A DNA stretch of 41,326 bases. Source: an uncultured Verrucomicrobiota bacterium. GTDB lineage: Bacteria; Verrucomicrobiota; Verrucomicrobiia; Limisphaerales; UBA9464. Made by a program: the position numbers and the translations under genes. Of the stretch, positions 283-41,143 are shown one piece after another. Every line of letters starts with the position of its first letter. The stretch's first letter is position 1. The stretch covers positions 1 to 41,326 of the forward strand of contig CAIRNV010000268.1 of assembly GCA_903880005.1 (NCBI GenBank). The letters are read 5' to 3'. The notes under the pieces were generated by a model. That model saw nothing but the letters and a program-made list of their open reading frames with translations, was not told where the DNA came from and did not search any database.

Positions 283-404
283 TAAGCAACCCCCGGGCCT
301 CGTCGATGGCCTGAAAAAAGGTTCCGCGCAGGCAAAAATCCATTGACCTCGGGGATTCAGCACGGTGAGAACAAGGGGTGACGGTTTCGACAAGGATTCA
401 AGCC

Positions 405-8328: not shown

Positions 8329-8330
8329 AA

Positions 8331-8448
8331 CGGAGCGTCTCGGTTTGATCGGTCGCGCCGGCGGGGTTTGCCTCGGCACGCCCTTTGGCCTGCGCTCGTT
8401 ACCCCGCCGGTTCCTCGACGGGGCGGGGCGCCTGGCTCACCCGTGCCG
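8331..8448 (-). repeat. Degenerate copy of the 165-bp palindromic element
   Basis: This fills nearly all of the gap between the convergent pyrF and recJ stops. Read left to right it aligns with minus-orientation copies: GGAGCGTCTCGGTTTGATCG against GGAACGATTCAGTTGGATCG, then GCGCTCGTTAC against TCGCTCGTTAC, then GGGGCGCCTGGCTCAC against CCGCGCCTCGCTCAC. The final fifty or so bases are missing. A ten-base-pair stem (CCGGCGGGGT at 8358-8367 with ACCCCGCCGG at 8401-8410) has formed within it and could serve as a bidirectional terminator. Confidence 0.65.
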
Positions 8449-8449
8449 G

Positions 8450-10180: not shown

Positions 10181-10217
10181 GTCAGGGCAGGGATGGGGCT
10201 GGGACGCGGCGGCGTGG

Positions 10218-11213: not shown

Positions 11214-11231
11214 GGGGGCAGGGCGCGGGTC

Positions 11232-12554: not shown

Positions 12555-12941
12555 CGGACGAGGCTATCGAGGTTCGCCTTGGCCCGCCACCCGGTTTTCT
12601 GGGCGAAATGCCCGGCGCGGCACGAGTCCCTTCGTCGGGATGGGCCTTGGAAAAAGCCTGCGGACGTTCCTCCAAATCTTGTGTTAGCCGGGCCCGCTTC
12701 CTCCATGCCCAACCGCTTCATGAATGCGCTTCGCTCATGGTCTTAATTTGCAAGTGTTTGAGAAAACTCATTGCATGACGAAGGCAAAGTGTGTAGCGGT
12801 CTCACCAGCCGAAAGTTCGACCGCCCCGGGCTTCTGTCCCGGAGGCTGGCTTCCCCAAGTCTTTGTTCCTGCGGCCCCGCCTAGCGTTTCGCCGCCCTTT
12901 TGGGTTCGGGCTCTTCCGGCGCCCACCAGTCCGTATCAGTC
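12555..12941. promoter_or_regulatory. Divergent control region between the PQQ-propeller gene and rho
   Basis: About 390 bases without a gene. An AT-rich island at 12741-12775 stands out in this GC-rich context and contains an imperfect dyad (TGCAA...TTTGAG-AAAA-CTCA...TTGCA). It is the best candidate for the rho promoter. That would leave a leader of about 160-190 bases with a small stem (CCGGG at 12826-12830, CCCGG at 12838-12842). Long leaders are common at autoregulated rho genes, but the transcription start here is inferred. Confidence 0.4.
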
Positions 12942-14858
12942 ATGAGCAACGAAAACACCGCGCCGAGGCAGTCCCAAGGCGCCCAAGGTCCCGGAAGCCC
13001 AGGCGATGCCGCCGACAACTCGTCGCGCGATCGCTACCAAGACCGCGACCGCTATTCGGAGCGTCCTCGGTCTCGCGATGACGACCGTCCCCGCGACGAC
13101 CGTCCCCGCGACGACCGCCCCCGCGACGACCGTCCCCGCGACGACCGCCCCCGCGACGACCGTCCCCGCGACGACCGCCCGCGCGACGACCGTCCCCGTG
13201 ACGACCGTCCCCGTGACGACCGTCCCCGTGACGACCGTCCCCGTGACGACCGTCCCCGTGACGACCGTCCCCGTGACGACCGTCCCCGCGACGACCGCCC
13301 CCGCGACGACCGCCCCCGCGACGACCGTCCCCGCGACGACCGTCCCCGCGACGACCGCCCCCGCGACGACCGTCCCCGCGACGACCGTCCCCGCGACGAC
13401 CGTCCCCGCGACGACCGCCCCCGTGACGACCGTCCCCGCGACGACCGCCCCCGCGATGATCGCCCCCGCGATGATCGCCCCCGCGACGATCGCCCCCGGG
13501 ATGATCGCGACCGGTCTTCTGATGGGCGGGATGACCGCGACCGGGATCGAAACCTCGATTCGAGGGATTCCCGAGATAACCGTGACCGCGACCGTCGTCC
13601 TCAAGGCGGCGGTGGAGGTGGAGGTGGTGGAGGCGGCCACCGTCATCATGGCGGGCATCGTCACCATGGCGGACGTGGAGGCGGAGGCGGAGGCGGAGGT
13701 GGTGGTGGCGGTGGCCAACGTGGTGGGCAGCAAGGCCCGCCTCAGGTCCAGGCCGACCCTGTCATTCACGAGGGTTACCTTGAGATCTCGGAGAAGGGCT
13801 TCGGCTTCCTTCGTTCTGCCAAGGCCCATTTTGCACCGAAGCCGAGCGACGTCTTCCTGACGCCGGACTCCATCAAGCGGCTGGCGCTTCGCGAGGGGAG
13901 CCAGATCAAGTGCACGGTGAATCCGCCGCATCGTGGCAACAGCCCGCAGCTTCGGGAGGTTCTGGAGGTGAACCAACGCCCGTACCAGGAGTACCTGCAC
14001 GCGCTGCGCTTCGAGAACCTCACGACCATCGATCCGGTGGACAAGTTCCTGCTCGAGACGACGCCGGACCTGCTGGAGACGCGGATCATCGACTTGGTGA
14101 CGCCGATTGGTAAGGGCACGCGCGGGCTGATCGTGGCCCCGCCGCGCACGGGCAAGACGACGGTCCTCAAGCAGATCTGCAACGCAATCACGACGAACCA
14201 CCCGGATGTCCACTGCCTCGTGCTCCTGATCGACGAGCGGCCCGAGGAGGTCACCGACTTCCAGCGCTCGGTGAAGGCCGAGGTCGTGGCGTCGAGCAAC
14301 GACCAGGACTTGGAAACCCACGTGCGCCTGAGCCGGTTCATGATTGAGCGAGCGAAGCGGATGGTGGAGTCAGGCAAGGACGTGTTCGTGCTGCTGGATT
14401 CGCTGACACGCGTGGCCCGCGCCTACAACTCGGTGCATGGCGGCTCGGGCCGCACGATGACCGGCGGCGTGGATGCCCGTGCGTTGGAGATCCCGCGCAA
14501 GATGTTCGCCGCCGCCCGCAAGGTGGAGGAGGGCGGATCGCTCACGATCCTCGCGACGGCGCTGATCGACACCGGGTCGCGCATGGACGAGCTGATCTTC
14601 CAGGAGTTCAAGGGCACCGGTAACATGGAGTTGATCCTGGACCGCAAGCTTGCGGAGCGTCGTCTGTTCCCGGCGATCGACATCCCGAAGTCGGGCACGC
14701 GGAAGGAGGAGAAGCTCTTCCCGCCGAAGTACCTCGAGGCGATCCGCAAGTTGCGCCGGATGATGACGGACCTCCAACCGGTCGAGGCGATGGAGACGCT
14801 CCTGGGAGCACTCCGGAAGTACAAGACCAACGAGGAGCTCCTGGCCAAGCTGTCGTGA
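12942..14858 (+). CDS. rho: Transcription termination factor Rho with a giant disordered N-terminal insert
   Basis: A 638-residue hexameric RNA helicase that ends transcription. The conserved core starts at about residue 278 (GYLEISEKGFGFLR, the RNA-binding cold-shock-like domain). It continues with DLVTPIGKGTRGLIVAPPRT, the P-loop Lys at about 405, the Walker B region VLLIDERPEEVTD, and the Q-loop and R-loop motifs; no core residue seems missing. Before it lies a huge low-complexity arm: residues 47-186 are 28 perfect DDRPR repeats, then Asp/Arg/Ser-rich sequence, then Gly-rich runs with HRHHGG repeats to about 262. Rho from E. coli is about 419 residues. The ATG at 12942 is chosen over an upstream in-frame GTG at 12900. 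The stop overlaps the mfd start (TGATG). Confidence 0.95.
   Translation: MSNENTAPRQSQGAQGPGSPGDAADNSSRDRYQDRDRYSERPRSRDDDRPRDDRPRDDRPRDDRPRDDRPRDDRPRDDRPRDDRPRDDRPRDDRPRDDRPRDDRPRDDRPRDDRPRDDRPRDDRPRDDRPRDDRPRDDRPRDDRPRDDRPRDDRPRDDRPRDDRPRDDRPRDDRPRDDRPRDDRPRDDRDRSSDGRDDRDRDRNLDSRDSRDNRDRDRRPQGGGGGGGGGGGHRHHGGHRHHGGRGGGGGGGGGGGGGQRGGQQGPPQVQADPVIHEGYLEISEKGFGFLRSAKAHFAPKPSDVFLTPDSIKRLALREGSQIKCTVNPPHRGNSPQLREVLEVNQRPYQEYLHALRFENLTTIDPVDKFLLETTPDLLETRIIDLVTPIGKGTRGLIVAPPRTGKTTVLKQICNAITTNHPDVHCLVLLIDERPEEVTDFQRSVKAEVVASSNDQDLETHVRLSRFMIERAKRMVESGKDVFVLLDSLTRVARAYNSVHGGSGRTMTGGVDARALEIPRKMFAAARKVEEGGSLTILATALIDTGSRMDELIFQEFKGTGNMELILDRKLAERRLFPAIDIPKSGTRKEEKLFPPKYLEAIRKLRRMMTDLQPVEAMETLLGALRKYKTNEELLAKLS
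13080..13499 (+). repeat. 15-bp minisatellite, 28 tandem units inside rho
   Basis: Twenty-eight in-frame 15-base units fill exactly 420 bases and each encodes DDRPR. Units differ only at synonymous sites: CGT or CGC in the first Arg codon, GAC or GAT for Asp, and CGC, CGT or CGG for the last Arg. Runs of identical variants occur, for example a block around 13190-13275 in which the unit ends in CGT. This pattern points to expansion by slippage or unequal exchange, with selection holding the protein sequence. Confidence 0.97.
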
Positions 14859-24638: not shown

Positions 24639-24704
24639 TCTTCCAACCTGTTGCCCCCATGCCCAAGCTCGCATCAGAGGCTCCCGCATGGTGAAGTCGC
24701 TCCC

Positions 24705-26258
24705 GTGACTTCCACCCCCTTCTCGCAGGTCGCCATCCGCCTCCGTCCCGACGACGACGTCGCCGTCGCCAAGTCCCAACTCCGCGCCGGAACCACCCTT
24801 GCCCTCGGTCGCGATGCCGTGGTGCTCGCCGCCGACGTTGGCCGAGGCCACAAGTTCGCCCTGCGCGACCTGGCGGACGGTGCCCCCGTCCGGAAGTACG
24901 GCCAGACCATCGGCTTCGCGCGCGGTGCCATTCGCGCCGGCGACCACGTCCACCTCCACAACGTCGTGGTCCGCCCGTTCGCCCGGGACGCCAGCGTGGG
25001 CACCGAGGCCGTCGCCCTTCCTGCGGCTACCCCGGACGAGGCGCGCACGTTCGAGGGGTTCCTTCGCCCCGACGGACGCGCCGGCACGCGCAACTACATT
25101 GGCGTCATCTCGTCCGTGAATTGCTCCGCATCGGTCTCCCGCTACGTCGCGGACCGCTTCCGCGGCCCGGATCTCGGCCGGGAATTCCCCGGCGTCGATG
25201 GGGTCGTCGCCTTCACCCACAAGAGCGGGTGCGCCATGCCCGACGACGAGCCCACCCGGCTGCTGCAACGCGTCCTGGCCGGCGTCGCCCGCCATCCCAA
25301 CATCTCCGGATGGGTGCTGCTCGGCCTCGGTTGCGAGGTGAACCAAGTCGAGCGCCTCGTCCGCGACCAAGGCCTCGCCACGGCCGGCCCCGGTGGCTCC
25401 GCGCCCCTCGTCATGAACATCCAGGCCCAGGGGGGCGTCGCCCGCACCGTCGAGTCCGCCACGCAGGCAGTCCGGCAAATCCTCCCGGCCGCCAACGCCC
25501 TCCGTCGCCAGACACTCCCGGTGTCCAAGCTCGCCCTCGCCCTCAATTGCGGCGGATCCGACGGCGCCAGCGGCATCACCGCCAACCCGGCCCTCGGCTT
25601 CGCCAGCGATGAGTTCGTCCGTCGCGGGGCCGCCTCGGTCCTCGCCGAAACCCCCGAGATTTACGGGGCCGAGCACCTCCTTACCCGGCGCGCCACCCGT
25701 CCGGAGGTCGCCCAGAAGCTCCTCGGGTTCATCCATTGGTGGGAGGAATACGCCCGCCTCCACAACGCCTCCATCGACAACAACCCGTCCGTGGGAAACA
25801 AGGCGGGCGGCCTCACCACCATCTACGAGAAGAGCCTCGGCGCCCTCGCCAAGGGCGGGCAGGCGCCGCTCTCGGCCGTCTATGGGTACGCCGAGCCCGT
25901 CGTGGGCCCCGGCCTCGCCTTCATGGATACCCCTGGCTACGACCCGGTCAGCATGACCGGCCTCATGTGCGGCGGTTGCAACGTGGGCGTGTTCACGACC
26001 GGGCGCGGCTCCGTGTACGGATGCAAGCCCATGCCCTGCATCAAGGTCGCCACCAACACCACCCTCTTCGACTGGATGCGCGACGACATGGACCTCAACG
26101 CCGGCACCATCCTCGACGGGACCGAGACCGTCGAGGAGGTCGGCCGCCGCATCTTCGAGGAGGTGATCGCCGTCGCGTCCGGCAAGCGCACGCGCAGCGA
26201 GGTCCACGGCATCGGCGACGAGGAGTTCGCACCGTGGACCCTCGGCCCGGTTTTCTAG
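24705..26258 (+). CDS. uxaA: Altronate dehydratase (UxaA family)
   Basis: A 517-residue enzyme of the altronate/galactarate dehydratase family, which turns D-altronate into 2-keto-3-deoxy-gluconate in hexuronate breakdown. The N-terminal SAF domain (about residues 1-75: AIRLRPDDDVAVAK, GHKFALRDL) is followed by the GRAGTRNYIGVISSVNCS linker. The catalytic part has HKSGCAMP, GLGCEVNQ, NCGGSDGASGITANPALGF, MDTPGYDPVSMTGLMCGGCN and PCIKVATNT. The full-length fusion matches E. coli UxaA (about 495 residues). The GTG start at 24705 gives a natural SAF beginning; TTG 24651 in frame would add 18 weak residues. tRNA-Tyr lies just upstream and no uronate gene is next to it. Confidence 0.9.
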   Translation: MTSTPFSQVAIRLRPDDDVAVAKSQLRAGTTLALGRDAVVLAADVGRGHKFALRDLADGAPVRKYGQTIGFARGAIRAGDHVHLHNVVVRPFARDASVGTEAVALPAATPDEARTFEGFLRPDGRAGTRNYIGVISSVNCSASVSRYVADRFRGPDLGREFPGVDGVVAFTHKSGCAMPDDEPTRLLQRVLAGVARHPNISGWVLLGLGCEVNQVERLVRDQGLATAGPGGSAPLVMNIQAQGGVARTVESATQAVRQILPAANALRRQTLPVSKLALALNCGGSDGASGITANPALGFASDEFVRRGAASVLAETPEIYGAEHLLTRRATRPEVAQKLLGFIHWWEEYARLHNASIDNNPSVGNKAGGLTTIYEKSLGALAKGGQAPLSAVYGYAEPVVGPGLAFMDTPGYDPVSMTGLMCGGCNVGVFTTGRGSVYGCKPMPCIKVATNTTLFDWMRDDMDLNAGTILDGTETVEEVGRRIFEEVIAVASGKRTRSEVHGIGDEEFAPWTLGPVF

Positions 26259-27215: not shown

Positions 27216-27312
27216 TGAGAACCCGTGCCCGAGTTTGAGCGTTTCAAACACGTTGTTGTCCCCTACAATTCGGAGGCCACCTGGCCATCCAGTCACTCGA
27301 TCAATATTTGGT

Positions 27313-28224
27313 ATGTCCCCTGCACCATCCAGCAGCGCAACCCGACTCTTCCCGTGGATCCCGGGCGCAATGGTTGTCGCTTGGTGGGTTTGGGAACTGT
27401 CCCACCATTGGGCGGCAATGGTGGAGTACCAGTTCGGCTGGATCGTGGTCGTCCTGGCCGCTTTTTTGGTGTGGGAGCGCTGGCCAAGCCAGCCCGAGCG
27501 ACGTTCCGGAGGGCATCTTGGCCTTGTTTGCATGCTGGCCTGCATCGGGTTTGCTTCCGTATTGGGGTCGGAGCTGTATCGGATCGGCCTGGCAAGGACC
27601 CCCACTCAGGTCATGGCCTTGAGCATCGGATGCGCGAGCTTCGTCCTGGCCCACATGCTGGCCTTGGGAGGTTGGCCATGGACCAGGCACTTTCTCTTCC
27701 CCCTCCTTTTCTTCTTCGTCGCCGTCCCCATCCCCAAGTTCTTCTGGAACCCGATCGTGTTTGGACTCCAAGCCTTCGTAGCCTTGCTCAACGTGGAGGC
27801 GTTGAACCTGCTTGGAATCCCCGCCATCCAGCAGAACCATGTCATCCAGTTGCCCAACACCACCGTTGGGGTGGACGAGGCATGCAGCGGCGTCCGAAGC
27901 CTGCAATCCAGCATCATGGCCGCCCTGTTCATCGGCGACCTCACCCTCCGCCGGGCCTCATGGAAGGCGTTCTTCCTCGTCGTCGGCGTTGCCTTGGCCG
28001 TCCTTGGCAATTTTGGGCGGTCCCTGTTCCTTTCCCTGACGGCGTATCGCGGTGGGCCCGATGCCCTCAAGGCCGTCCACGACTCGGCGGGATGGAGCGT
28101 CTTGGTATTCACGGCTGGCGGGATGGCCCTCTTGGGATGGGCGGTAACACGGCTTGAACAGCGCATCCAATCCAACCCGCCAAACGCCGGCAACGTGGCG
28201 GAGGAAGCGCATCCTCCAGCCTAG
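27313..28224 (+). CDS. Exosortase (membrane protein-sorting transpeptidase)
   Basis: A 303-residue multi-pass membrane protease with about eight hydrophobic segments. The exosortase signature residues are clear: Cys191 in VDEACSGVRS, Arg236 in LGNFGRSLFLS and His256 in KAVHDSAGW. Exosortases process proteins with PEP-CTERM-like tags at the end of export and are usually encoded inside exopolysaccharide loci, as here. A plausible substrate is the PEP-CTERM protein at 405. ATG 27313 is chosen; an in-frame TTG at 27235 would add 26 residues without a reason. No strong ribosome site is visible. It is followed 59 bases later by an EpsI-like partner. Confidence 0.93.
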   Translation: MSPAPSSSATRLFPWIPGAMVVAWWVWELSHHWAAMVEYQFGWIVVVLAAFLVWERWPSQPERRSGGHLGLVCMLACIGFASVLGSELYRIGLARTPTQVMALSIGCASFVLAHMLALGGWPWTRHFLFPLLFFFVAVPIPKFFWNPIVFGLQAFVALLNVEALNLLGIPAIQQNHVIQLPNTTVGVDEACSGVRSLQSSIMAALFIGDLTLRRASWKAFFLVVGVALAVLGNFGRSLFLSLTAYRGGPDALKAVHDSAGWSVLVFTAGGMALLGWAVTRLEQRIQSNPPNAGNVAEEAHPPA

Positions 28225-28283
28225 GCTTGTAAATCCATCCGACGTGCGTACCCCCCCAGCCATAGCACCTCGCAGCCCTCACC

Positions 28284-29027
28284 ATGCCTCCTAAATCCCA
28301 CGCGCTGGCCCCATCGGTGCTCGGCGTGTTGTTCATCTTGGCTACAGGCGGCGCATGGGCGTGGTTCAACATCTCGCCCAAGCAATTCCCAGTTAGCTAT
28401 CACTTCAACCCGCGCCCAGACATCCCGGGATGGACGTTCTCGCCCGACCCGATCTCCGAGCAGGCGCGTGACATCCTGTCCACGACAAACCTCTTCAACG
28501 GGTTCTACACCAATGCAAGCGGTGCCCGCATCACGGCGTTCATGGGGACATGGGATGCCAACAACCCCAAGCAGATGGGCGTCGTCGGGCATACTCCAGA
28601 TGTCTGCTGGGTCGGCGCCGGGTGGGAGCCCGTGTCCGGCGGACACCCCGACAAGATCAATGTTCGATTTGGGACGAATAGCATTCCATTCGAGGCACGT
28701 ACTTTCCTGACCCCGGACAAGCGGTCTCGCGAGCTGACGTCCTGGTGCACGCTGGTCAGCGGCCAGGTCTTCGCCGAGGAGGGCAGGTTCGAGCTGTCGG
28801 ATGATGCGAAGGCCAAGGTCGGTGCGGCGCGGCGCGCTTCCGGCAGCCGACACAGCCTGAGGTCCAAGCTCACCAAGTCCATCCTCGAGCGCATCCCGGG
28901 CACCGGCGCGAAGCAATTCGTCCGCTTCTCCACGTCCTCGGGCGGCGACCCCGAGGCAAGCTTCGCCCTCTTGCAGGATTTCGGCGCGAAATGGCTCGAA
29001 CTGCAGGTCAGCCATCCAGGCAATTAG
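28284..29027 (+). CDS. Exosortase-associated EpsI-family protein
   Basis: A 247-residue protein with one N-terminal membrane anchor (residues 10-28) and a periplasmic domain. The region around HTPDVCWVGAGWEPV matches the conserved His, Cys and Trp pattern of EpsI-family proteins, which are encoded beside or fused to exosortases and are thought to help exopolysaccharide export or sorting. The C-terminal third is basic and less conserved. It follows the exosortase gene directly and is probably co-transcribed with it. The stop codon TAG is formed by the first base of the palindromic element that begins at 29027, so the C-terminus may have been set by that insertion. Confidence 0.88.
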   Translation: MPPKSHALAPSVLGVLFILATGGAWAWFNISPKQFPVSYHFNPRPDIPGWTFSPDPISEQARDILSTTNLFNGFYTNASGARITAFMGTWDANNPKQMGVVGHTPDVCWVGAGWEPVSGGHPDKINVRFGTNSIPFEARTFLTPDKRSRELTSWCTLVSGQVFAEEGRFELSDDAKAKVGAARRASGSRHSLRSKLTKSILERIPGTGAKQFVRFSTSSGGDPEASFALLQDFGAKWLELQVSHPGN

Positions 29028-29242: not shown

Positions 29243-31220
<1,978 letters not shown>

Positions 31221-31293: not shown

Positions 31294-32217
31294 ATGATCA
31301 TTGGAATAGGCCCCTCCTCATTCGCGCAGGAGGATAAGAGCCCCTTGCAACGCTTGGTTGACGCGGGTTGCACCGTCGTCCCAAACCCGACTGGCAAAAG
31401 GCTCTCCGAGCCCGAGATCATTGAATACCTCGCCCGTCACAAGATCGAGGGCTTGATCGCCGGCCTCGAACCCCTCAACCGGCGCGTCCTTGAGTCGGCC
31501 CGGCCCCACCTCCGAGCGGTCGCCCGCGTTGGCATCGGCATCACCAACGTGGACGTCCAGGCATGCCGGGACCTTGGCATTGCATTTAGCTACACGCCAG
31601 ACGGCCCCACCGAGGCCGTGGCCGAGCTGACCCTCGCCGCGTTGCTCAGCCTTGCGCGTGACCTCGTGCCCATGAACCGCGAGCTGCACCTCGGCGGGTG
31701 GCCGAAGCGGATCGGCCGGAGCCTCGCCGAACTTCAGGTTCTCGTCGTCGGATACGGGCGGATCGGGGGCCGCGTGGCCTCCTTGCTGACATCACTTGGC
31801 GCCCAAGTGTTGGTCTGCGACCCCTTCCTCCCCAAGGATGCCGCTTGCCCCTTTCCCGTGGTGTCACTCGCCGACGGACTGGCCATGTGCGACGTCGTGT
31901 CCCTGCATTGCGGGGGCGATAAGGTCTTGCTCGGCAAGGATGAAATCGCCAACGCCAAGCCTGGCTTGATGATCCTCAATTCAGCTCGTGGCGAGCTCGT
32001 GGATGAGTCAGCCCTCATTGCGGCCTTGGAGTCCGGTCACGTGTCCAAGGCTTGGTTCGACACCTTTTGGAAGGAGCCTTACACGGGGCGACTCCTCGGA
32101 ATGCCACAAGTGCTCTTGACGCCTCACGCCGCAACCTATACGCGCCGATGCCGCTCGCGCATGGAGAACGAGGCGGTCACCAACCTGTTGCTCGGACTCG
32201 GGATCGCCAATCCCTAG
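31294..32217 (+). CDS. D-2-hydroxyacid dehydrogenase (NAD-dependent)
   Basis: A 307-residue enzyme of the D-isomer 2-hydroxyacid dehydrogenase family. The NAD-binding motif VVGYGRIGGRVA is at residues 151-161, and the catalytic triad is Arg232 (LNSARGELVDE), Glu261 (KEPYTG) and His278 (TPHAATYTR). It lies in a run of sugar-metabolism genes, so a sugar-derived 2-hydroxy or 2-keto acid is a likely substrate; phosphoglycerate cannot be excluded, but the typical SerA C-terminal ACT domain is absent. The ATG at 31294 is used because the in-frame upstream extension is Pro-rich. It is the first gene of the acidic-sugar cassette. Confidence 0.85.
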   Translation: MIIGIGPSSFAQEDKSPLQRLVDAGCTVVPNPTGKRLSEPEIIEYLARHKIEGLIAGLEPLNRRVLESARPHLRAVARVGIGITNVDVQACRDLGIAFSYTPDGPTEAVAELTLAALLSLARDLVPMNRELHLGGWPKRIGRSLAELQVLVVGYGRIGGRVASLLTSLGAQVLVCDPFLPKDAACPFPVVSLADGLAMCDVVSLHCGGDKVLLGKDEIANAKPGLMILNSARGELVDESALIAALESGHVSKAWFDTFWKEPYTGRLLGMPQVLLTPHAATYTRRCRSRMENEAVTNLLLGLGIANP

Positions 32218-32289
32218 GGCTTCAGGAATTCAAGCGCTGCATCCCGCTCTGGCACCAACACCAGCCAAGCCATCACCAAGACAACCCCC

Positions 32290-32784
32290 ATGACGCACGC
32301 AAGCATTGCAAGTTGGAGAAACCATCCGTGGCTTGTAGCCCACCCCGTCTGGCGAGCAGCCTTTGACTGGATTGAACGGCAAGGGCCCGATTCGCCCGTG
32401 GGCGATACACCCCTCGGCTATCCGGACATGCTTGGACGTGTCATGGCCTATCCATTGAAGCCCCGGGATCAATGCCTCTACGAGGCCCACCGTCGTACCA
32501 TCGACATTCAGGTTACACTGACCGGCTGCGAGGGCATCGAGTTCGCTGACATGAGGGCCATCTTGGCCAGAAACAACTACTCGGATGCCCTCGACGTGGA
32601 GCACTTTGACCTCCCCACACGCGGCATCTCAACCGTGCGCAACATCCCTGGTTTCTTCTCCATGATCCTTCCAGGCGAGCCTCACTTGCCCCAAATCGCC
32701 ATGAGCGACGAGCAAAACCCCAGCGTCCGCAAGCTCGTGGTCAAGGTTCCGGCTCTATTGGTGGGCGTCGTCTGCAATTCCTAG
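32290..32784 (+). CDS. YhcH/YjgK/YiaL family protein (NanQ-like)
   Basis: A 164-residue beta-sandwich protein of the DUF386 family. The pattern LYEAHRRTIDIQVTLTGCEG and FSMILPGEPHLPQIA holds the conserved His and Glu residues that bind metal in the family. E. coli YhcH (NanQ) was shown to speed interconversion of sialic-acid anomers, and other relatives sit in sugar operons. Its place three genes upstream of a NeuA-type cytidylyltransferase fits a role in handling an ulosonic-acid-like sugar. The start at ATG 32290 gives the usual length. Which sugar is involved is not known. Confidence 0.85.
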   Translation: MTHASIASWRNHPWLVAHPVWRAAFDWIERQGPDSPVGDTPLGYPDMLGRVMAYPLKPRDQCLYEAHRRTIDIQVTLTGCEGIEFADMRAILARNNYSDALDVEHFDLPTRGISTVRNIPGFFSMILPGEPHLPQIAMSDEQNPSVRKLVVKVPALLVGVVCNS

Positions 32785-32815
32785 TCCTCGCCGCAATTCC
32801 CCTTCCTTAGGCATC

Positions 32816-33583
32816 ATGCCCTCCTCCCCTGAAGAGACCCAAGCGGCGGTCGCCGCCGCAATCAAGGCCGGCAAACTGCTTCGCAATGCCTTCGTCAATG
32901 GCTCCGAGGTCAAGTCCGCGGCCGGGCGGGACATCAAGCTAGACGCCGACGTCAAGGCCGAGGAAGCAATCCTCGCGGTTCTTCGCGAACGCACCGATTG
33001 CCCGGTCCTCTCGGAGGAAGCCGGCCCCGACAAAGGGCTGTCGCACGACGAGAGACATTGGGTCATTGATCCACTCGACGGCACGTTCAACTTCAGCCGC
33101 GGCATCCCGCTCTGTTGCGTTAGCATAGGCCTCATGGAGCACGGGCACCCGGTGCTGGGCGTCATCTATGACTTCATGTCCGACACCCTGTACAAGGGAG
33201 GGAAAGGGCTGCCAGCCCTCGCGAATGAAGCCCCTCTTCGGAGCAGCCGGACGCGCGACATCTCCCAGGCTGCTGTCTGCACTGGCTTTCCGCTGCGTGC
33301 CGACTACGGAACCGAGTCGCTACTTGGGGTCGCGGGGCTCGCGACCCGCTTCAAGAAGGTCCGAATGCTGGGCTCCGCAGCCACGAGCCTTTCGATGGTC
33401 GCAAGGGGCAGCATGGACGCGTATGTTGAGACCGGAATTAGCCTGTGGGATGTCGCCGCCGGGATCGCAATCGTCGAGGCAGCGGGCGGTCGCGTGATGT
33501 TCAGGCCGGTCGGTGACCATGCGCAACTCCACGTCGTGGCCACTAATGGTGAACTTCGGCCAGAGGCAATAGATCAAGCCTGA
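32816..33583 (+). CDS. Inositol-monophosphatase family sugar phosphatase
   Basis: A 255-residue phosphatase of the inositol monophosphatase superfamily. The metal-binding signatures are LSEEAG (Glu67/68), IDPLDGTFNFSRG (Asp85, Asp88) and SLWDVAAG (Asp212). In glycan loci such proteins remove a phosphate from a sugar phosphate before activation. It starts 32 bases after the YhcH-like gene and precedes the Gfo/Idh/MocA oxidoreductase. The substrate is unknown; 3'-phosphoadenosine 5'-phosphate phosphatase is an alternative, but the context favours a sugar. Confidence 0.9.
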   Translation: MPSSPEETQAAVAAAIKAGKLLRNAFVNGSEVKSAAGRDIKLDADVKAEEAILAVLRERTDCPVLSEEAGPDKGLSHDERHWVIDPLDGTFNFSRGIPLCCVSIGLMEHGHPVLGVIYDFMSDTLYKGGKGLPALANEAPLRSSRTRDISQAAVCTGFPLRADYGTESLLGVAGLATRFKKVRMLGSAATSLSMVARGSMDAYVETGISLWDVAAGIAIVEAAGGRVMFRPVGDHAQLHVVATNGELRPEAIDQA

Positions 33584-33617
33584 AGACAGATGGAAGACCA
33601 GAAAGGGGTTAATGCAG

Positions 33618-34643
33618 ATGCTAAGGATTGGAATCATTGGAATGGGCAAGATGGGCATGATCCGCATGGAAGCCGTCCATGCATCCGGCAAGGGTAGGGT
33701 TGCCATGGCCTTTGACGTGGATTGCAAAGAAATTCCAGGTCTCGCGTGGGCCAAGGATCCCATGGAAATAATCGCGTCGCCGACCATCGACGCCGTCTTC
33801 ATCGCTACGCCTAACCACCAGAATCGACCGCTCACGATTGCGGCGATGGAGCACGGGAAGCACGTCTTCTGCGAGAAGCCGCCCGCCCTCACCGGCGCCG
33901 AGGTCGAGGAAATTCGTGCGGTTGAGTCGAGGACACACCGAACGCTGATGTACGGATTCAATCACAGACATCATGAGTCAATCCGTGTGATGAAGAGGCT
34001 CGTTGACTCTGGATCCTATGGTCGCCTGTTGTGGATGCGGGGCCGATACGGAAAGAGCGTGGACAAGAACTACTTCTCGACATGGAGGGCCAGTCGGGAC
34101 CTTGCGGGGGGCGGCATTCTTCTCGACCAAGGCATCCATATGCTTGACCTGTTCCTACTGCTCGCCGGTGAATTTGACGAGGTCCAGGCCATGGTCTCAA
34201 GCCTTTACTGGAAGCTAGACGGAATCGAGGACAACGTCTTCGCCAACCTAAGGAATCGATCGACGGGCGTCGTTGCATCGCTGCATTCCACAATGACCCA
34301 ATGGCGCCACCTCTTCTCCCTGGAGGTTTTCCTCGAAAGGGGCCACATCGTGTTGAATGGCCTCAAGACGAGCTCGGGCAGCTATGGGGACGAGGTCTTG
34401 TCCGTCGCTAGGAATCGAGGCGTAGCCCCAGCCGCCACTTGGCAGGACGAGGAGCGAACCGTCTTCCACATCGATAACTCTTGGGTCGACGAGACCGACG
34501 CATTTCTCCAGAGCGTCATCCAAGGAACCCCTGTGGGGACGGGAAGCTCGAAGGACGCACTGAAGGTCATGCGCCTCATAGACACGATCTACCAATCAGA
34601 GCCACACCGGCATCCATGCCTGAAGGACGACCTCTCCACGTAG
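33618..34643 (+). CDS. Gfo/Idh/MocA family NAD-dependent oxidoreductase
   Basis: A 341-residue Rossmann-type oxidoreductase. The opening MLRIGIIGMGKMGMIRMEAV is the dinucleotide motif, and EKPPALTGAEVEEI (Glu86, Lys87, Pro88) is the family's catalytic-region hallmark. GGILLDQGIHMLDLFLLLAG supplies the conserved His region. ATG 33618 is preferred over ATG 33612 because AAGGGG ends nine bases before it. Members oxidise sugars or inositols at C-2, C-3 or C-4, so this is a likely step in building the cassette's sugar. Confidence 0.9.
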   Translation: MLRIGIIGMGKMGMIRMEAVHASGKGRVAMAFDVDCKEIPGLAWAKDPMEIIASPTIDAVFIATPNHQNRPLTIAAMEHGKHVFCEKPPALTGAEVEEIRAVESRTHRTLMYGFNHRHHESIRVMKRLVDSGSYGRLLWMRGRYGKSVDKNYFSTWRASRDLAGGGILLDQGIHMLDLFLLLAGEFDEVQAMVSSLYWKLDGIEDNVFANLRNRSTGVVASLHSTMTQWRHLFSLEVFLERGHIVLNGLKTSSGSYGDEVLSVARNRGVAPAATWQDEERTVFHIDNSWVDETDAFLQSVIQGTPVGTGSSKDALKVMRLIDTIYQSEPHRHPCLKDDLST

Positions 34644-34735
34644 CAATCCGCATTCGGCACCCGGGCTGGGGCCTGTGAAAGCCCCGCAAAGAGCGGGAAA
34701 AAATCCACCAACATGCTAACCCTAGAATCTTGCAA

Positions 34736-35917
34736 ATGAACAAGGTAACCGCAGTCATACCATTGCTTCTCGGCAGCACTCGCATCCCCGACAAGAACCT
34801 CATCCTTGTCAATGGGTACCCAATGGCCTTCTACGTCGCGGCCGCATGCAAGGCAAGCGGTGCATTCGACGAGATCTACATAAACTCCGAGAACCAGGTG
34901 TTCGAGGAATATGCGCGACAGCTCGGCGTGAAGTTCTACAAGCGACCGGCCGAAAGGGGCGGATCCCGTTGCAAAATGGTCAACAAATCAAGGGACTGTG
35001 GTGGAGCGCGCTGCCAGGTTCACGACCACTTCCTGATGGACTTCATCGAGGCCGTTCCCACGGAGTATTTGGTCCAGGTCCACGCCACGTCTCCCCTCAT
35101 CAAGCCCGATACCATCCGAAGCTTCGTCGAAAGCCTGCTCGGGGGACGGCACGACTCCTTGTTCACAGTCGAGGAGATCCATTGCGAGACCCTAATCGGC
35201 GACAAGCCGCTTAACTTTGACCTGGCCAAAAAGACCATGACCCAAGACCTGCCGCCCGTACGAAAGCTAGCTTGGGCCGTGTCCGGTTGGAAGGTCGAGT
35301 CATTCGGGGCATCCTACCAACTAAACGACCCAGCGACCCCCGGGCCCACGTTCGTCGGGCGGGTAGGCTTCCACCCCATCAGCCAAATTGAGGCACTCGA
35401 CGCGGACACCCTCGATGAGCTCTTCATCATCGAGGCCTGCCTCAACCATGAAAAGCGGAGGGAAAACCTTGGGAAGTTCCGGTTCCATGACAAGGTCGTC
35501 GAGATTGATCACAGGCTCATGCACCTCATCATGCGGGACGGCGTCCGCAAGTTCGAGGGTGAATCCGGCTTCAACCAGCCCCACATGAAGCCGATGGAAA
35601 TCAAGGCGAAAATGAGCGGGACATCTTGGTGCCATCCCCTGGTGTACACGGACAACGATCAGTGCTGCCTCATATCACAATCGCCGGGCGAGGGTTGCCG
35701 AACCCACTATCATGTCACCAAGGACGAATGGTGGATCGTCATCGAGGGGACGTTTGAATGGCGACTTGGAGACGGACGCATCATCACTGCAAATCCGGGC
35801 GAGGTGGTCTTCCTTAAGAAGGGAACCGTCCACACCATTGTCTGCGTCGGTCCAAGCCCGGGCATTCGGCTGGCATGCGGCGCACGCGACATGGAGCATA
35901 TTTATGTCAAGCCCTAG
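34736..35917 (+). CDS. Acylneuraminate-cytidylyltransferase-like protein fused to a C-terminal cupin
   Basis: A 393-residue two-domain protein. The N-terminal domain (about 1-225) resembles NeuA-type CMP-sugar synthetases: VIPLLLGSTRIPDKNL at the nucleotide loop, YLVQVHATSPLI, and a FHPISQIEALDADT segment. The usual PAR of the loop is replaced by PLL, so the Arg seen in classical enzymes is missing. Residues 79-98 carry Cys79, Cys88, Cys93, His96 and His98, a possible metal site. The C-terminal domain (about 285-390) is a cupin; GCRTHYHVTKDEWWIVIEG matches cupin motif 1 exactly (HxH, Glu, Gly), and GEVVFLKKGTVH fits motif 2. Cupins in sugar enzymes are often epimerases or sensors. The exact sugar is unknown. 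ATG 34736 is used; TTG 34730 adds two residues. Confidence 0.82.
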   Translation: MNKVTAVIPLLLGSTRIPDKNLILVNGYPMAFYVAAACKASGAFDEIYINSENQVFEEYARQLGVKFYKRPAERGGSRCKMVNKSRDCGGARCQVHDHFLMDFIEAVPTEYLVQVHATSPLIKPDTIRSFVESLLGGRHDSLFTVEEIHCETLIGDKPLNFDLAKKTMTQDLPPVRKLAWAVSGWKVESFGASYQLNDPATPGPTFVGRVGFHPISQIEALDADTLDELFIIEACLNHEKRRENLGKFRFHDKVVEIDHRLMHLIMRDGVRKFEGESGFNQPHMKPMEIKAKMSGTSWCHPLVYTDNDQCCLISQSPGEGCRTHYHVTKDEWWIVIEGTFEWRLGDGRIITANPGEVVFLKKGTVHTIVCVGPSPGIRLACGARDMEHIYVKP

Positions 35918-36605
35918 GCCGGTTGCCCTGGTAACCGGTGCTAGTCAGGGAATCGGCGCTAGCATCCGGGAGGCCTTGGAGCGTCAAGCTTGGCGCGTCA
36001 TCGGGGCATCGCGCTCACCTCGGCAGCCCTCTGACATCGCCATGGACATACGAGACGAGGCGTCCGTGGCCCGTGGCTTTGCACAGGTCGTCCAAGAAAA
36101 CGGCCGGCTTGATCTTCTGGTCAACAACGCCTCGATTGTTTCCCAGTCACGTATCGAGGACTGTCCCCTCCAAGAGTGGTGCGATGTCATCGAGACCAAC
36201 CTTACGGGTACCTTCCTGTGTTGCAGGGAGGCCGTCCGCCATTTCCTCCGTGCAGGGAGCGGGTCCATCATATGCATCTCCTCCATTGCGGGGCGCGGAA
36301 GCAGCCTAACGGCCTCCGAGGCATACACTTGCTCCAAGCATGCAGTGATTGGCCTTACAAAACAGCTGGCCCGTCGGTATGCCTCGTCCAAGATCCGAGT
36401 CAATTGTGTGGCTCCTAGCCAGACCCTCACGGCAATGTTGAGGGGCTCCTTGCCGCCAGACCGCCTTTCTCAAATAGCATCGGCAAACCCCATGGGCCGG
36501 CTTGCCGAGCCCTCGGAGGTGGCTGCTGCCGTCGCGTTCCTCGCCAGTCCAGAAGCCTCGTACATCAATGCGGCTGTGATCGACGTCAACGGAGGGGCTT
36601 GGTAG
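35904..36605 (+). CDS. Short-chain dehydrogenase/reductase
   Basis: A 233-residue classical SDR. TGASQGIG (residues 11-18), the NNAS stretch (75-78), the catalytic Ser127 in CISSIAG, and Tyr141/Lys145 in YTCSKHAV are present, and PEASYINAAVIDVNGGAW near the C-terminus is typical. The ATG lies 14 bases before the stop of the cytidylyltransferase gene, so the two are probably coupled. It is the last gene of the acidic-sugar cassette. It would reduce or epimerise a keto-sugar intermediate; the substrate is not predictable. Confidence 0.9.
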   Translation: MSSPRPVALVTGASQGIGASIREALERQAWRVIGASRSPRQPSDIAMDIRDEASVARGFAQVVQENGRLDLLVNNASIVSQSRIEDCPLQEWCDVIETNLTGTFLCCREAVRHFLRAGSGSIICISSIAGRGSSLTASEAYTCSKHAVIGLTKQLARRYASSKIRVNCVAPSQTLTAMLRGSLPPDRLSQIASANPMGRLAEPSEVAAAVAFLASPEASYINAAVIDVNGGAW

Positions 36606-37218: not shown

Positions 37219-38751
37219 ATGATGTGGCGTGCCACGGAGAGGGTAACGGCCAAGCTGATGCTCCCGAGCCTCGTCAAACTCTTGGCGCGCGCCTGGGATT
37301 CTCCAACTCTAAACACTTGGCTGAGCCTTTTTTCCCGGACGGTTGGCGGAGTTGTGGTCTTGCCAACCTTGCTCAGGCGATTTGACCCGGGCGAGGTCGC
37401 GGTCTGGTACTTGTTTGCAACAATCATTGGGATTGGAATGCTGCTTGACCTGGGAATCAACCCCACTCTGACCCGGTTCGTCGCGTACGCCAATGCGGGC
37501 CCAAGGCAGCATCCTGGCGCCCCACCCAACGCGTCGCAGCCGGACCTTCCGACGTTGTATGCTGCGATGCGGCGGCTTTACCTTGGCATGGCCCTTGCCG
37601 TGGTGGTTCTGTTGGGAGTGGTCGGGACTTGGGCTCTATCTGTACCAATAAGCCGGCTAGACTCACCAAGAACCGCCTATGCGCTTTGGGCTCTTATTGT
37701 GCTACTATCGCCGCTGGCATTCACGAACAACCTCAAGCTTGCATTCCTTCAGGGCAGCGGTTTCATCGCGGTTGTGCGGCGGTGGGATGCCGTCTTCGGC
37801 ATGCTTGGAATACTATCGAATCTTGCTGTATTAGAGTATGGCCTTGGGCTCACTGGACTGGTGATTTCAACGCAGGTATGGGGGATTGTTGCCGCATGGC
37901 GAACCAAGCGCATCTTCAACTCGAAGCTCGGCTCCATGGACCGCACCGAGCGTCTGACCCTCCGCGAGACAGGGTCCGCCATCGCCATGATTTGGCCTTC
38001 CTCGTGGCGGGTTGGACTAGGCTCCATTGCATACCTCGGTGCCCAACACTCATCTGGGCTGATCTATGCGACCATGGGCCCCAAGGAAAGGCTTGCTAGC
38101 TACCTGCTTGGCATCCAAGTTTTCAATATTATCAGGGCGTCCAGCATGGCCCCTTTTTACACCAAGCTACCCGTCCTTGCTAGGATGTCCGCCGAAGGGC
38201 GAGTAGGTGAAGTGCGTGCAACGGCCGGTGCTGGAATGGTAAGATCCTACTGGGTTTTTGTAGCATGGGCGGCCGGTGCTGGGATTTTGGTTCCGTACAT
38301 TCTGGATAGCATCGGCAGCAAGACGCGCTTTCCATCCGATCTGCTCTGGGGTGGGATTACGATCGGGGGCTTGCTGGAAAGGTTCGGTGGAATGCACCAG
38401 AACATCTTGGCGGCGTTTAATGTTGTCAGGTCCCATTGGGCCGGCCTTGGCTTCCTCGTGGTTTACCTGGGCTTCGTGCTGGGATTGATTCGAGCCCTAG
38501 ATGTCCTCGCATTTCCCGTGGCGATGATCGCGGGCCATGTGCTGTTCTACTCGTGGTATTCCGGGCGACATAGCTACAGGGCCTTGGGGACGACGTTCCT
38601 GGGCTTCGAGCGGACGAAGTTCTTGCCTGCGGCGGTAACGATGGTGGTCGTGGTGTGGGCCACCATGCGAATGGGACCCGCCATTCGTGCGACCTTGCCC
38701 GTAGTCCCTGAGTGGCTAAAGCCCGCATCCAGCTCGGCCAGGCAATTCTAG
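37219..38751 (+). CDS. Wzx-like polysaccharide flippase
   Basis: A 510-residue membrane protein with about twelve hydrophobic segments (for example TVGGVVVLPTLLRRF, VVLLGVVGTWALSV and LGFLVVYLGFVLGLI). The layout resembles MATE/Wzx-type lipid-linked oligosaccharide flippases. A run of Arg-rich short loops and the region around SGLIYATMGPKERLASYLLG fit such transporters, but no single motif is decisive. Its place directly before a polymerase-like gene in a glycan locus is the main support. The start is ATG 37219 or 37222, with GGGGGA just upstream. The gene looks more AT-rich than the GDP-fucose genes, hinting at transfer. Confidence 0.82.
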   Translation: MMWRATERVTAKLMLPSLVKLLARAWDSPTLNTWLSLFSRTVGGVVVLPTLLRRFDPGEVAVWYLFATIIGIGMLLDLGINPTLTRFVAYANAGPRQHPGAPPNASQPDLPTLYAAMRRLYLGMALAVVVLLGVVGTWALSVPISRLDSPRTAYALWALIVLLSPLAFTNNLKLAFLQGSGFIAVVRRWDAVFGMLGILSNLAVLEYGLGLTGLVISTQVWGIVAAWRTKRIFNSKLGSMDRTERLTLRETGSAIAMIWPSSWRVGLGSIAYLGAQHSSGLIYATMGPKERLASYLLGIQVFNIIRASSMAPFYTKLPVLARMSAEGRVGEVRATAGAGMVRSYWVFVAWAAGAGILVPYILDSIGSKTRFPSDLLWGGITIGGLLERFGGMHQNILAAFNVVRSHWAGLGFLVVYLGFVLGLIRALDVLAFPVAMIAGHVLFYSWYSGRHSYRALGTTFLGFERTKFLPAAVTMVVVVWATMRMGPAIRATLPVVPEWLKPASSSARQF

Positions 38752-38774
38752 CCGAGGCATTGTCCACGCCTACC

Positions 38775-40154
38775 ATGATAAGTACTGACCGCAGCGATGC
38801 AAGCTCCCTCAGCCTCCCCGTGCTCGCGGTGATCTATGGGGGGCTTCTAAGCGTCTGGGCTTTGACGTCCTATTACACGTGGCCCGTTGGCGCGTTGATG
38901 GTCGCAGCCACTTTCAAGCTGACAGGGGCGAGGCTTGACGATTTCAATCCGATATCCATGGCCACTGGACCTCGCAGCCACAAGGTGGCGCTCCTTTGGA
39001 CAGTCCTGTATGCCATCAACCTCTGGCGCAGGTTTATTGAGAACCCGGAGGTGCTTGCCGAGGTCAGTGCCTCCGACATGGTGGATCGCTTCAACCAGAA
39101 TCTTCTGTTCAAGGATGTCATGCTCTATCTTGGCGTCGCCAACCTGTTCCTGTTTAATCGTCGCCATACCCTTTCCCAGAAAATGTGGGTCTTTTTGGTG
39201 GCTCTTGCCATCTACGGACTTGCGAACCTCGCGTTGGAGGTTTTCTTCCCAGATAGGGCTCGGATTGAGTTTGGCGCTAGCCGAGTACTGGGCAAGGAGG
39301 GCAGATGGAGTCCGGCCCTCTCGCGATCGAATGAGGTTGCCTCCTCGCTCTTCATGTCGGGTGCCTCCGCCATGGCGGCCACCCTGGCGTATTGCGTGGT
39401 CCTCAAGGGGCGGGAATCCCTTCGCCTGTGGCAATTTGCAGTGATGGCGGGAGCAATGCTCGTGCTTGCATATTGCGGCTACAAGGCCGAGTTCAGGGGC
39501 CACCTCTTGGCGCTGGTAAGCGTCGCGGGGTTCACGGTTGCGACGTTGTTTGGAGCGGGTCGGATTGTCATAGTGACGTTGCTGGTTGGCGGTGCGATCT
39601 TCCCGCAACTCTTCTTTGGCGAGGTTGGTCCTGCCGTTATGGATGCCCTGCCGATCGACGAGGTGCTTGAGATGATTGGGGCGAAGGGGAATCGAGACAA
39701 GACCCTAACAGGGCGGACCGATCTGTGGTACTACGCCGGTACCCGGCTTTCATCCGTGCCGGAGATCCTGGCCGTCGGCGAGGGGCCAGCCTTGCGGGAC
39801 GCCTCCGTGATGGAGTCAACCGCCTTATTCTCCGGTTATCGCATGAACTATCATTCTGGCATGATTGAGCTCCTTATGGCCAACGGGTTACCGCTTGCAA
39901 CGGCCATGTTTGGAGTGCTTGCGGCGGCAGCGTGGGGGACATTTGCAAACCATCGAGGAGGAGGGAAGGAACAAATTGGCCTCTTCATGTTGCTCTCATG
40001 GCTTGCGGCGACCTTGGCCTTGGCATTTGTGGGCCCGAGTTATGCCTATTTCGAGACAGCCGTCCTGATTGTAATGCCGCTCCTGTCGGCGTGGCCCAGG
40101 CATGCGAATGCCGGGATGGGAGCCGCGGCTTGCAAGGGGCATGCGGTGGCGTGA
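38775..40154 (+). CDS. O-antigen polymerase/ligase-like membrane protein (Wzy-like)
   Basis: A 459-residue membrane protein with about ten hydrophobic helices and a large loop between about residues 320 and 375. That loop includes GNRDKTLTGRTDLWYYAGTR and MNYHSGMIELLMANGLPLA, which resemble the GR-x-LW and H-x-x-x-L-x-x-x-GLPG-like stretches of the Wzy/WaaL superfamily. It would polymerise lipid-linked repeat units in the periplasm. GTG 38712 in frame gives a longer version overlapping the flippase gene's end; ATG 38775 is chosen because it begins close to the first helix. The gene follows the flippase gene 23 bases later. Confidence 0.8.
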   Translation: MISTDRSDASSLSLPVLAVIYGGLLSVWALTSYYTWPVGALMVAATFKLTGARLDDFNPISMATGPRSHKVALLWTVLYAINLWRRFIENPEVLAEVSASDMVDRFNQNLLFKDVMLYLGVANLFLFNRRHTLSQKMWVFLVALAIYGLANLALEVFFPDRARIEFGASRVLGKEGRWSPALSRSNEVASSLFMSGASAMAATLAYCVVLKGRESLRLWQFAVMAGAMLVLAYCGYKAEFRGHLLALVSVAGFTVATLFGAGRIVIVTLLVGGAIFPQLFFGEVGPAVMDALPIDEVLEMIGAKGNRDKTLTGRTDLWYYAGTRLSSVPEILAVGEGPALRDASVMESTALFSGYRMNYHSGMIELLMANGLPLATAMFGVLAAAAWGTFANHRGGGKEQIGLFMLLSWLAATLALAFVGPSYAYFETAVLIVMPLLSAWPRHANAGMGAAACKGHAVA

Positions 40155-40243: not shown

Positions 40244-41143
40244 ATGTCTTTCATGCACCGTTTTCTAAGGCCCTCCTATCTGTGGGAAAACAGGGCCAGG
40301 GTTGGCTCGCGTACGCTGAAAGCGGTGCGCCAGGGGGTTGGATTTATTGGTGTACCCCTGTCACCCAACGCGGTCCAATTGCGACGATTGAAGGACATTC
40401 ACAAGGGGCGGCGCGCATTTGTGCTTGGCAACGGGCCCAGCCTTCGGGTAGCCGACCTTGACCGGCTCAAGGGGGAGATCTGCTTCGCCGCCAACAAGAT
40501 CTACCTGGCCTTTGACGAGACACAGTGGAGGCCCAGCTATTACTTTGTTGCGGACCTGCTCGTCGCCCGGAACAACGCCGACATGATTCATTCGCTGCCG
40601 TTGCGGAAGTTTTATGCACGGGGCATGTCAAAGTACCTCAATGCGGACTCCAGCACGACGTGGTTCGAGGAGGATCCCGGGAACAGCGGTCACGTCGATG
40701 GCAACCCGGCCTTTCCCGGTATGCGGTCGAGGAGCGGGGATAGGGTCGGATATTTCTCGAGGAACCCGCTTGTTGCCGTTTACGGCGGCGGGACGGTTAT
40801 CATCCCCATGCTTCAAATAGCGCATTACATGGGGATTTCCGAGGTGTACATCATCGGCTTGGATTTCAGCTTCAAGGTTCCGGACCGGCGGGTTGCGACG
40901 GGCGAGGCCGGTGGGTACGGGCAAGCCCTAGAGGCCGCGGGCGAGGTCAATCATTTTCATCCCAACTACCGTCAGGTCGGGGAAGTATGGGCTATTCCTC
41001 GGCTAGATATCCAGGAGTTTGCGTTCAAGGGGGCGAGGGCAGCCTTCGAGGATGACGGGCGCAGGATATTCAACGCCTCGCGGCAGTCGAAGTTGGAGGT
41101 GTTTGAGCGGGCGAACTTGGACGACGTGCTATCGGGACGTTAG
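40244..41143 (+). CDS. DUF115/GT42-like putative glycosyltransferase
   Basis: A 299-residue soluble protein. It has AFVLGNGPSLRVADLDRLKG (residues 58-77) and Asn84 in FAANKIYLAF. VYGGGTVIIPMLQIAHYMGI (about 179-198) leads into EVYIIGLDF, and NHFHPNYR lies at 236-243. This order follows the Campylobacter Cst-type sialyltransferases (GT42), with GNGPSL, an Asn in the FxCN segment, a Gly-x-x-x-AL-x-Gly region, a (G)IDF strand and a His-x-x-His-like site, and also the related DUF115/MptE-like family. Because the same locus encodes a CMP-sugar synthetase-like enzyme, it may transfer that sugar. MptE-like pterin pyrophosphokinase is the main alternative name. The gene ends 44 bases before a copy of the palindromic element. 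Confidence 0.7.
   Translation: MSFMHRFLRPSYLWENRARVGSRTLKAVRQGVGFIGVPLSPNAVQLRRLKDIHKGRRAFVLGNGPSLRVADLDRLKGEICFAANKIYLAFDETQWRPSYYFVADLLVARNNADMIHSLPLRKFYARGMSKYLNADSSTTWFEEDPGNSGHVDGNPAFPGMRSRSGDRVGYFSRNPLVAVYGGGTVIIPMLQIAHYMGISEVYIIGLDFSFKVPDRRVATGEAGGYGQALEAAGEVNHFHPNYRQVGEVWAIPRLDIQEFAFKGARAAFEDDGRRIFNASRQSKLEVFERANLDDVLSGR

Follow-up and report, generated by a model that had tools for sequence, protein, structure and literature searches.

Which sugar is made by a gene cassette that carries a NeuA-like cytidylyltransferase (CT) but no NeuB synthase? The question is raised by the window analysed here, a stretch of 41,326 nucleotides from an uncultured Verrucomicrobiota bacterium (contig CAIRNV010000268.1 of assembly GCA_903880005.1), in which such a cassette occupies positions 31294-36605. 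To our knowledge, all known sialic-like-acid pathways build their carbon skeleton with NeuB, and both these pathways and that of 3-deoxy-D-manno-octulosonic acid (Kdo) obtain the 2-keto-acid end from phosphoenolpyruvate condensed with a shorter sugar. We propose, at a probability of roughly one half, that the cassette makes a 2-ulosonic acid activated by cytidine monophosphate (CMP) via a NeuB-independent oxidative route, and that this product feeds an exopolysaccharide. More generally, the gene set, which is common to unrelated bacteria, probably makes and activates an acidic sialic-type surface sugar without NeuB. No description of this gene combination was found in the open-licence literature.

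The cassette consists of six intact open reading frames in a single tight run on the + strand, with intergenic gaps of 72, 31, 28, 86 and -14 bp in gene order. They encode a D-2-hydroxyacid dehydrogenase (2-HADH) of the SerA/PdxB superfamily (31294-32217, 307 aa; PF02826, 2-Hacid_dh_C, 133.8 bits), a YhcH/NanQ-family (DUF386) protein (32290-32784; PF04074, 74.7 bits), an inositol-monophosphatase (IMPase)-type sugar phosphatase (32816-33583; PF00459, Inositol_P, 188 bits), a Gfo/Idh/MocA oxidoreductase (33612-34643; PF01408, GFO_IDH_MocA, 70 bits, and PF22725), a CT-cupin fusion (34730-35917; PF02348, CTP_transf_3, 52.5 bits, and PF07883, Cupin_2, 40.5 bits) and a short-chain dehydrogenase/reductase (SDR; 35904-36605; PF13561, adh_short_C2, 175 bits). 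All six were assigned by Pfam far above cut-off, and every one of their proteins, the CT and cupin domains of the fusion alike, has the active-site motifs expected of its family, in agreement with the names given to the genes in the initial annotation. A scan for promoters and terminators gave no signal above chance.

The initial annotation had seen no NeuB-type synthase in the window, and this observation now extends to the whole host assembly (G000; 5.0 Mb, 96.6% complete). A search with PF03102, which finds NeuB in nine of 14 known genomes used as a control, gave no candidate anywhere in G000, of which 3-4% may be missing; the standard NeuB set that the annotation had named as the result that would speak against it did not turn up. 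When the cassette was scanned with Pfam and NCBIfam, no genes for hexosamine epimerases and dehydratases (NeuC, PseB, LegB and others) appeared. When the gene set was sought in other genomes, as the annotation had suggested, it was found to recur, and two of its carriers, G039 (100% complete) and G466 (97%), gave no PF03102 match either; the match in a third, G380, is borderline only. In carriers with a strong NeuB, the gene lies on another contig or at a distance (about 528 kb in G173). The NeuB of Paenibacillus, about 11 kb from the module, is grouped with genes for an aminotransferase, a dehydratase, an acetyltransferase-like protein and a cytidylyltransferase distinct from that of the module; we read this group as a pseudaminic acid (Pse) cluster. 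Because this Pse-like cluster is separate and includes a CT of its own, its NeuB was rejected as a source of substrate for the module CT.

What kind of acid the CT would activate can be approached through its fold and relatives. The AlphaFold model of the fusion (pLDDT 86.6), with the CT at residues ~5-245 and the cupin at ~300-395, has the CMP-Kdn synthetase PpNeuA as its best Foldseek match (E=2.5e-16, TMt 0.82); the synthetases of CMP-Kdn, CMP-N-acetylneuraminic acid (Neu5Ac) and CMP-Pse are its closest structural neighbours, followed by KdsB and, further down, IspD. This ranking agrees with a profile search, which matches the murine CMP-Neu5Ac synthetase (E=3.9e-30). Sequence and model, including the PF02348 score above cut-off, point to a CMP-ulosonate synthetase of the NeuA/KdsB superfamily, and together with the linked sialyltransferase-like protein described below they support the NeuA-like CMP activation that had been predicted. 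The CT does not reach the cut-offs for PseF (TIGR03584; 43.6 bits, with three other members at 74-94, against 205.7) or KdsB (TIGR00466; 19.1 bits against 155.2). Among 286 genomes of the window's class, seven score at least 312 bits with the profile A1, built on eight CTs of widely differing bacterial origin, and the next best scores are ~115 bits; in a tree, the module CTs group with the CTs of viral contigs in a single clade (support 96/92), to which KdsB, PseF and the NeuB-linked or NeuB-fused CTs do not belong. At the level of sequence, the CT thus forms a distinct, sharply separated subfamily. CTs outside the clade, in contrast, sit with NeuB and IMPase on plasmids of E. coli and Enterobacter, or are fused to NeuB, as in Nonomuraea. 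The plasmid CT-IMPase-NeuB trios (L010 in Enterobacter, L011 in E. coli) lie amid insertion sequences, and their IMPase may stand in for the usual sialate-9-phosphate phosphatase.

Activation of Kdo by the cassette CT was rejected, as G000 encodes a true KdsB (L085; 232.7 bits against the cut-off of 155.2). The genome also encodes DAHP/Kdo-8-P synthase family proteins, including KdsA, so that Kdo synthesis is served by a KdsA and a KdsB apart from the cassette, and the cassette CT has a substrate other than Kdo. It is likewise very unlikely that the cassette modifies Kdo, or a KdsA-route intermediate, and that the CT then activates the resulting derivative. G000 indeed yielded no ulosonate synthase family besides KdsA, and the CT is distantly KdsB-like; but the dedicated KdsB, the occurrence of the full module in the Gram-positive Paenibacillus and CT scores far below every KdsB cut-off all argue against such a derivative.

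The composition of the module was defined by comparing 12 bacterial loci (the window, L001, L007, L008, L009 and L022-L028). In all 12, including those of Paenibacillus, Leisingera and Sinorhizobium, the CT is accompanied by a 2-HADH and a Gfo/Idh protein. A phosphatase is linked to it in nine (IMPase in eight, a HAD phosphatase in L001), a GmhA-like SIS isomerase is present in eight and YhcH in four to five. All six genes of the proposed cassette are thus present in the window, but they are not a fixed set: the core is CT, 2-HADH and Gfo/Idh, usually with a phosphatase and an SIS isomerase, while YhcH, cupin and SDR are optional. In L001, Gfo/Idh, a second NeuA-like CT and an SIS isomerase are domains of one 777-aa protein (8941-11274). 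A single scan of genome contigs found one locus, its patterns having come from one protein.

Gfo/Idh is the most conserved partner, with a mean column identity of 60% in an 11-member alignment, in which the window protein is 39-64% identical to the other members. It has the Rossmann and C-terminal domains, an EKP motif at 88 and DxxxH at 172. The window 2-HADH has the NAD domain and the catalytic R/E/H triad; its best NCBIfam match is PGDH (172 bits, below the cut-off of 454), and it shares 48-63% identity with its counterparts in the modules of Paenibacillus (L009), G126 (L005) and G380 (L022). Across the module, at least three sequence types of 2-HADH occur, with 24-63% identity to that of the window, as if the reaction, and not a single gene lineage, were retained. 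The IMPase-type phosphatase carries the DPLDGT and WDxAxG motifs. The module SIS proteins are closest to phosphoheptose isomerase, yet under its cut-off, a resemblance in sequence that gives a hint of a heptose rather than proof.

The YhcH-type protein passes the family thresholds (TIGR00022, 50.5 bits over 45.5; PF04074, over 26.5) and matches the HI0227 YhcH structure, with a score below the cut-off of the NanQ N-acetylneuraminate anomerase equivalog (NF040884; 56.5 against 160 bits). Its E. coli relative has been shown to be a Neu5Ac anomerase (PMC8141875), and we propose that the window protein would, by analogy, fit as an ulosonate anomerase. The same experimental result could favour salvage or remodelling of an external sialic-like sugar, in which YhcH opens the sugar, Gfo/Idh takes the part of YjhC/NanOx in converting anhydro or dehydro forms, and the product is activated anew with CMP by the CT. 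The Gfo/Idh protein YjhC regenerates Neu5Ac from anhydro/didehydro forms (PMC7315737), and the lack of NeuB in G000 would suit a salvaging organism. However, phosphatase and sugar-phosphate isomerase, both frequent partners, would be superfluous for salvage, YhcH is absent from most module loci, and no sialidase, transporter or lyase was seen in the loci examined. Moreover, the window Gfo/Idh is nearer to levoglucosan dehydrogenase (94 bits) and glucose-fructose oxidoreductase (75) than to YjhC/NanOx (54-56). Salvage therefore appears quite unlikely.

We favour instead the oxidative route. As the conserved set contains no condensing enzyme, lyase or dehydratase, the 2-keto acid would most simply be made by oxidation; the phosphatase and SIS isomerase partners imply an origin from a sugar phosphate, and the conserved linkage of Gfo/Idh, 2-HADH and phosphatase leads us to the hypothesis, already present in the initial annotation, of oxidation starting from a sugar phosphate. 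The proposed pathway builds on the genes present, their intact motifs, the conservation of the set across phyla, the lack of NeuB, a CMP-sialate-synthetase fold and a sialyltransferase relative. A GmhA-like SIS protein would isomerise a ketose phosphate to an aldose phosphate; this enzyme belongs to the module in other genomes, and in G000 would come from other loci. The IMPase-type phosphatase would then take off the phosphate, Gfo/Idh/MocA would oxidise C1 of the aldose to an aldonate or lactone, and 2-HADH would oxidise the C2 hydroxyl of the aldonate to give the 2-keto acid, comparable to SerA, PdxB and 2-ketogluconate reductase, in either direction. YhcH could provide the needed anomer, the NeuA-like CT would form the CMP-ulosonate, and the GT42/MptE-like protein encoded downstream would transfer the ulosonate into the exopolysaccharide. 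Each of these chemical steps, their order, the position of the dephosphorylation, the carbon number and the stereochemistry are deductions from the gene set. A more specific version of the route is possible, although somewhat doubtful: independent of both NeuB and KdsA, it would use two NAD-linked oxidations (Gfo/Idh at C1, 2-HADH at C2) to yield a non-deoxy CMP-ulosonate, would occur phyla-wide and would be virus-borne in its CT-cupin form. The aldose would then perhaps be a heptose from sedoheptulose 7-phosphate, and the product an acid such as hept-2-ulosonate.

Another source of the 2-keto acid would be an aldolase or a dehydratase whose gene lies outside the module, such as an altronate dehydratase giving a 2-keto-3-deoxy acid, with 2-HADH and Gfo/Idh acting at other positions. 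The window does contain a UxaA-like galactarate/altronate dehydratase gene (24651-26258), upstream of the exosortase gene; but no such gene was seen in the other module loci examined, and the invariant partners are the two dehydrogenases, which leaves this origin very improbable.

In the window, the CT-fused cupin and the SDR would add extra tailoring of an epimerisation/reduction type. The cupin site H326/H328/E333/H368 is invariant in 28 of 28 fusions, suggesting from sequence that the cupin is probably catalytic. Fused cupin and SDR co-occur in three of three bacterial cases, and neither was seen with the unfused CTs of the 12 loci. A cupin epimerase is paired with an SDR reductase in RmlC/RmlD, and by this analogy the pair looks like a tailoring add-on, which is the simplest reading. 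The CT-cupin frame begins with TTG at 34730, with an ATG at 34736. The SDR frame, open from 35712, is misleading: the gene most likely starts at 35904, overlapping the CT-cupin stop by 14 bp, and the L001 SDR follows its CT-cupin at equal spacing. Among the fusions aligned, the window and L001 alone share a Cys-rich insertion (34950-35030, CT residues ~77-97; C-x-M-x-NKSR-x-C-x-G-x-x-CQ-V-HDH), a possible metal site.

The transfer end of the pathway is represented by the MptE-like/GT42-related protein (40244-41143, + strand; PF01973, 40 bits), relatives of which lie near the CT in nine of the 12 bacterial loci, including the window. The profile A2, representing these relatives, matches the CstII sialyltransferase (1ro8) with E=1.9e-12 over the nucleotide-binding domain, indicating homology of that domain. 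The GT42 profile PF06002 gave no match for the window protein and sub-threshold matches for two relatives. Foldseek comparison of the structural model, supportive only, gave low TM-scores (best 0.43, MptE), with MptE/HPPK as the top structural match and weaker fold matches to ST6GALNAC2 and ST8SiaIII. An A2 relative is present in six of seven CT carriers vs eight of 279 other genomes (Fisher P=3e-8), every time on the same contig as the CT and within ~8 kb. Two viral loci have a gene of the sialyltransferase family GT29 directly upstream of the CT. The presence of two distinct sialyltransferase-type families beside the same CT subfamily lends good support to a CMP-sugar donor, and we propose the MptE/GT42-like protein as a candidate CMP-ulosonate glycosyltransferase.

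These glycosyltransferase relatives also bear on whether the product is an ulosonic acid at all. The CT-cupin fusion is carried by 52 IMG/VR viral contigs (L030-L081), marine ones among them, where its neighbours often include SDR, an AroB-like 'phospholyase (cyclizing)' (TIGR04425), a class-III aminotransferase, a GmhA-like SIS protein and GDP-fucose genes; such neighbourhoods appear to be a virus-borne sugar pathway. The CT could instead convert some other acid, a polyol or a cyclitol into its CMP or CDP derivative, the sialyltransferase-like protein using this donor. Viral loci and one bacterial locus pair the CT-cupin with the AroB-like phospholyase and, in viruses, with the class-III aminotransferase, a pairing that hints at cyclitol chemistry; in addition, several unfused CTs have lost the DxD that lies towards the C-terminal end of the CT domain. 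We nevertheless consider a non-ulosonic product unlikely, as the structures closest to the CT are the synthetases of CMP-Kdn, CMP-Neu5Ac and CMP-Pse, with IspD lower, GT29 and GT42 relatives flank the CT, and AroB-like genes are absent from 11 of the 12 bacterial loci. The AroB-like cyclase of L026 (9915-11009, in G173) occurs in a module version without IMPase and may substitute for the phosphatase step. In viral L061, CT-cupin, SDR, 2-HADH, Gfo/Idh and SIS are all found in one locus (7980-14346); ~5 kb upstream are genes of the NeuB family and of AroB-like type, one of each.

Several points do weigh against a NeuB-independent oxidative synthesis. Most viral CT-cupin loci have no Gfo/Idh and 2-HADH, with AroB-like cyclase and aminotransferase instead, so that several acids may be substrates of the CT subfamily. 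The differing types of 2-HADH may not perform one identical step at every locus. The window cluster has no SIS gene, three SIS_2 proteins being encoded elsewhere in G000. A strong NeuB is present elsewhere in four of eight bacterial genomes tested, and G000 is an assembly of 492 contigs. The window and L001 CTs have LLLGS/VLLGS where most relatives have ARLGS/ARMGS (the ARxGS motif), and LLLGS in the window could change CTP binding. Finally, A2 was built partly from these loci, which favours its scores, but not the co-location.

The surrounding genes place the module in an exopolysaccharide locus. Upstream are exosortase (EpsH) and DUF3485 (EpsI-like) genes (27235-29027), which, with the gene for a PEP-CTERM protein elsewhere in the window (378-1472), indicate an exosortase-type exopolysaccharide system. 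GDP-L-fucose genes follow on the + strand (29243-31220: fcl at 29243-30169, gmd in the frame ending at 31220; NF047922, 485.9 bits against a cut-off of 500, and TIGR01472 for gmd, 537 bits); they are neighbours in the same polysaccharide locus, outside the CT module. Downstream, the functional unit reaches past the six genes to 41143, with a Wzx-like O-unit flippase (37219-38751, +; NF041503, 145.8 bits, cut-off 300), a hydrophobic multi-span membrane protein (38712-40154, +) and the GT42/MptE-like protein. A flippase-like protein similar to that of the window also follows the module in L023. The membrane protein has a hydrophobic translation and no match in Pfam, and could possibly be a Wzy-type polymerase.

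Should the proposal be true, a class of surface sugars would be added, along with a CMP-sugar synthetase family with fused cupins and candidate glycosyltransferases; an oxidative route to CMP-ulosonates, if proven, would be a new pathway. Genome surveys for sialic-like sugars use NeuB as a marker, and a NeuB-free CMP-ulosonate module would thus be invisible to them.

How does the module compare with known systems? The D-2-hydroxyacid dehydrogenases SerA, PdxB and GhrB, which use 3-phosphoglycerate, 4-phosphoerythronate and 2-ketogluconate, share with the window 2-HADH the fold, the catalytic triad and chemistry on 2-hydroxy acids and phospho-aldonates, whereas the window protein stays under all NCBIfam equivalog cut-offs and has a polysaccharide context. 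Sialic acid catabolism by YjhC/NanOx and YhcH also combines Gfo/Idh and DUF386 partners, but the module has a phosphatase and a CT, no lyase was seen in it and its Gfo/Idh is only distantly related. With the Kdo pathway (KdsD-KdsA-KdsC-KdsB) it has in common a sugar-phosphate isomerase, a phosphatase and CMP activation of a 2-ulosonate, but it contains no KdsA-type condensation, and G000 keeps separate KdsA and KdsB. The MptE/GT42-like protein shares the GNGPSL motif region and the nucleotide-binding domain with GT42 (CstI/CstII), MptE and Maf-type proteins, differing in its lack of a PF06002 match and in having MptE/HPPK as top structural match. In a published comparison, NeuB was the sole gene conserved across nonulosonic acid pathways (PMC7371886). 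Compared with the NeuB/NeuA pathways for Neu5Ac, legionaminic and pseudaminic acid, the module lacks this defining gene and has Gfo/Idh and 2-HADH as invariant partners; yet it resembles them at the predicted activation and transfer end, with a NeuA-superfamily CT, sialyltransferase-type transfer, a YhcH partner and a role in surface glycans.

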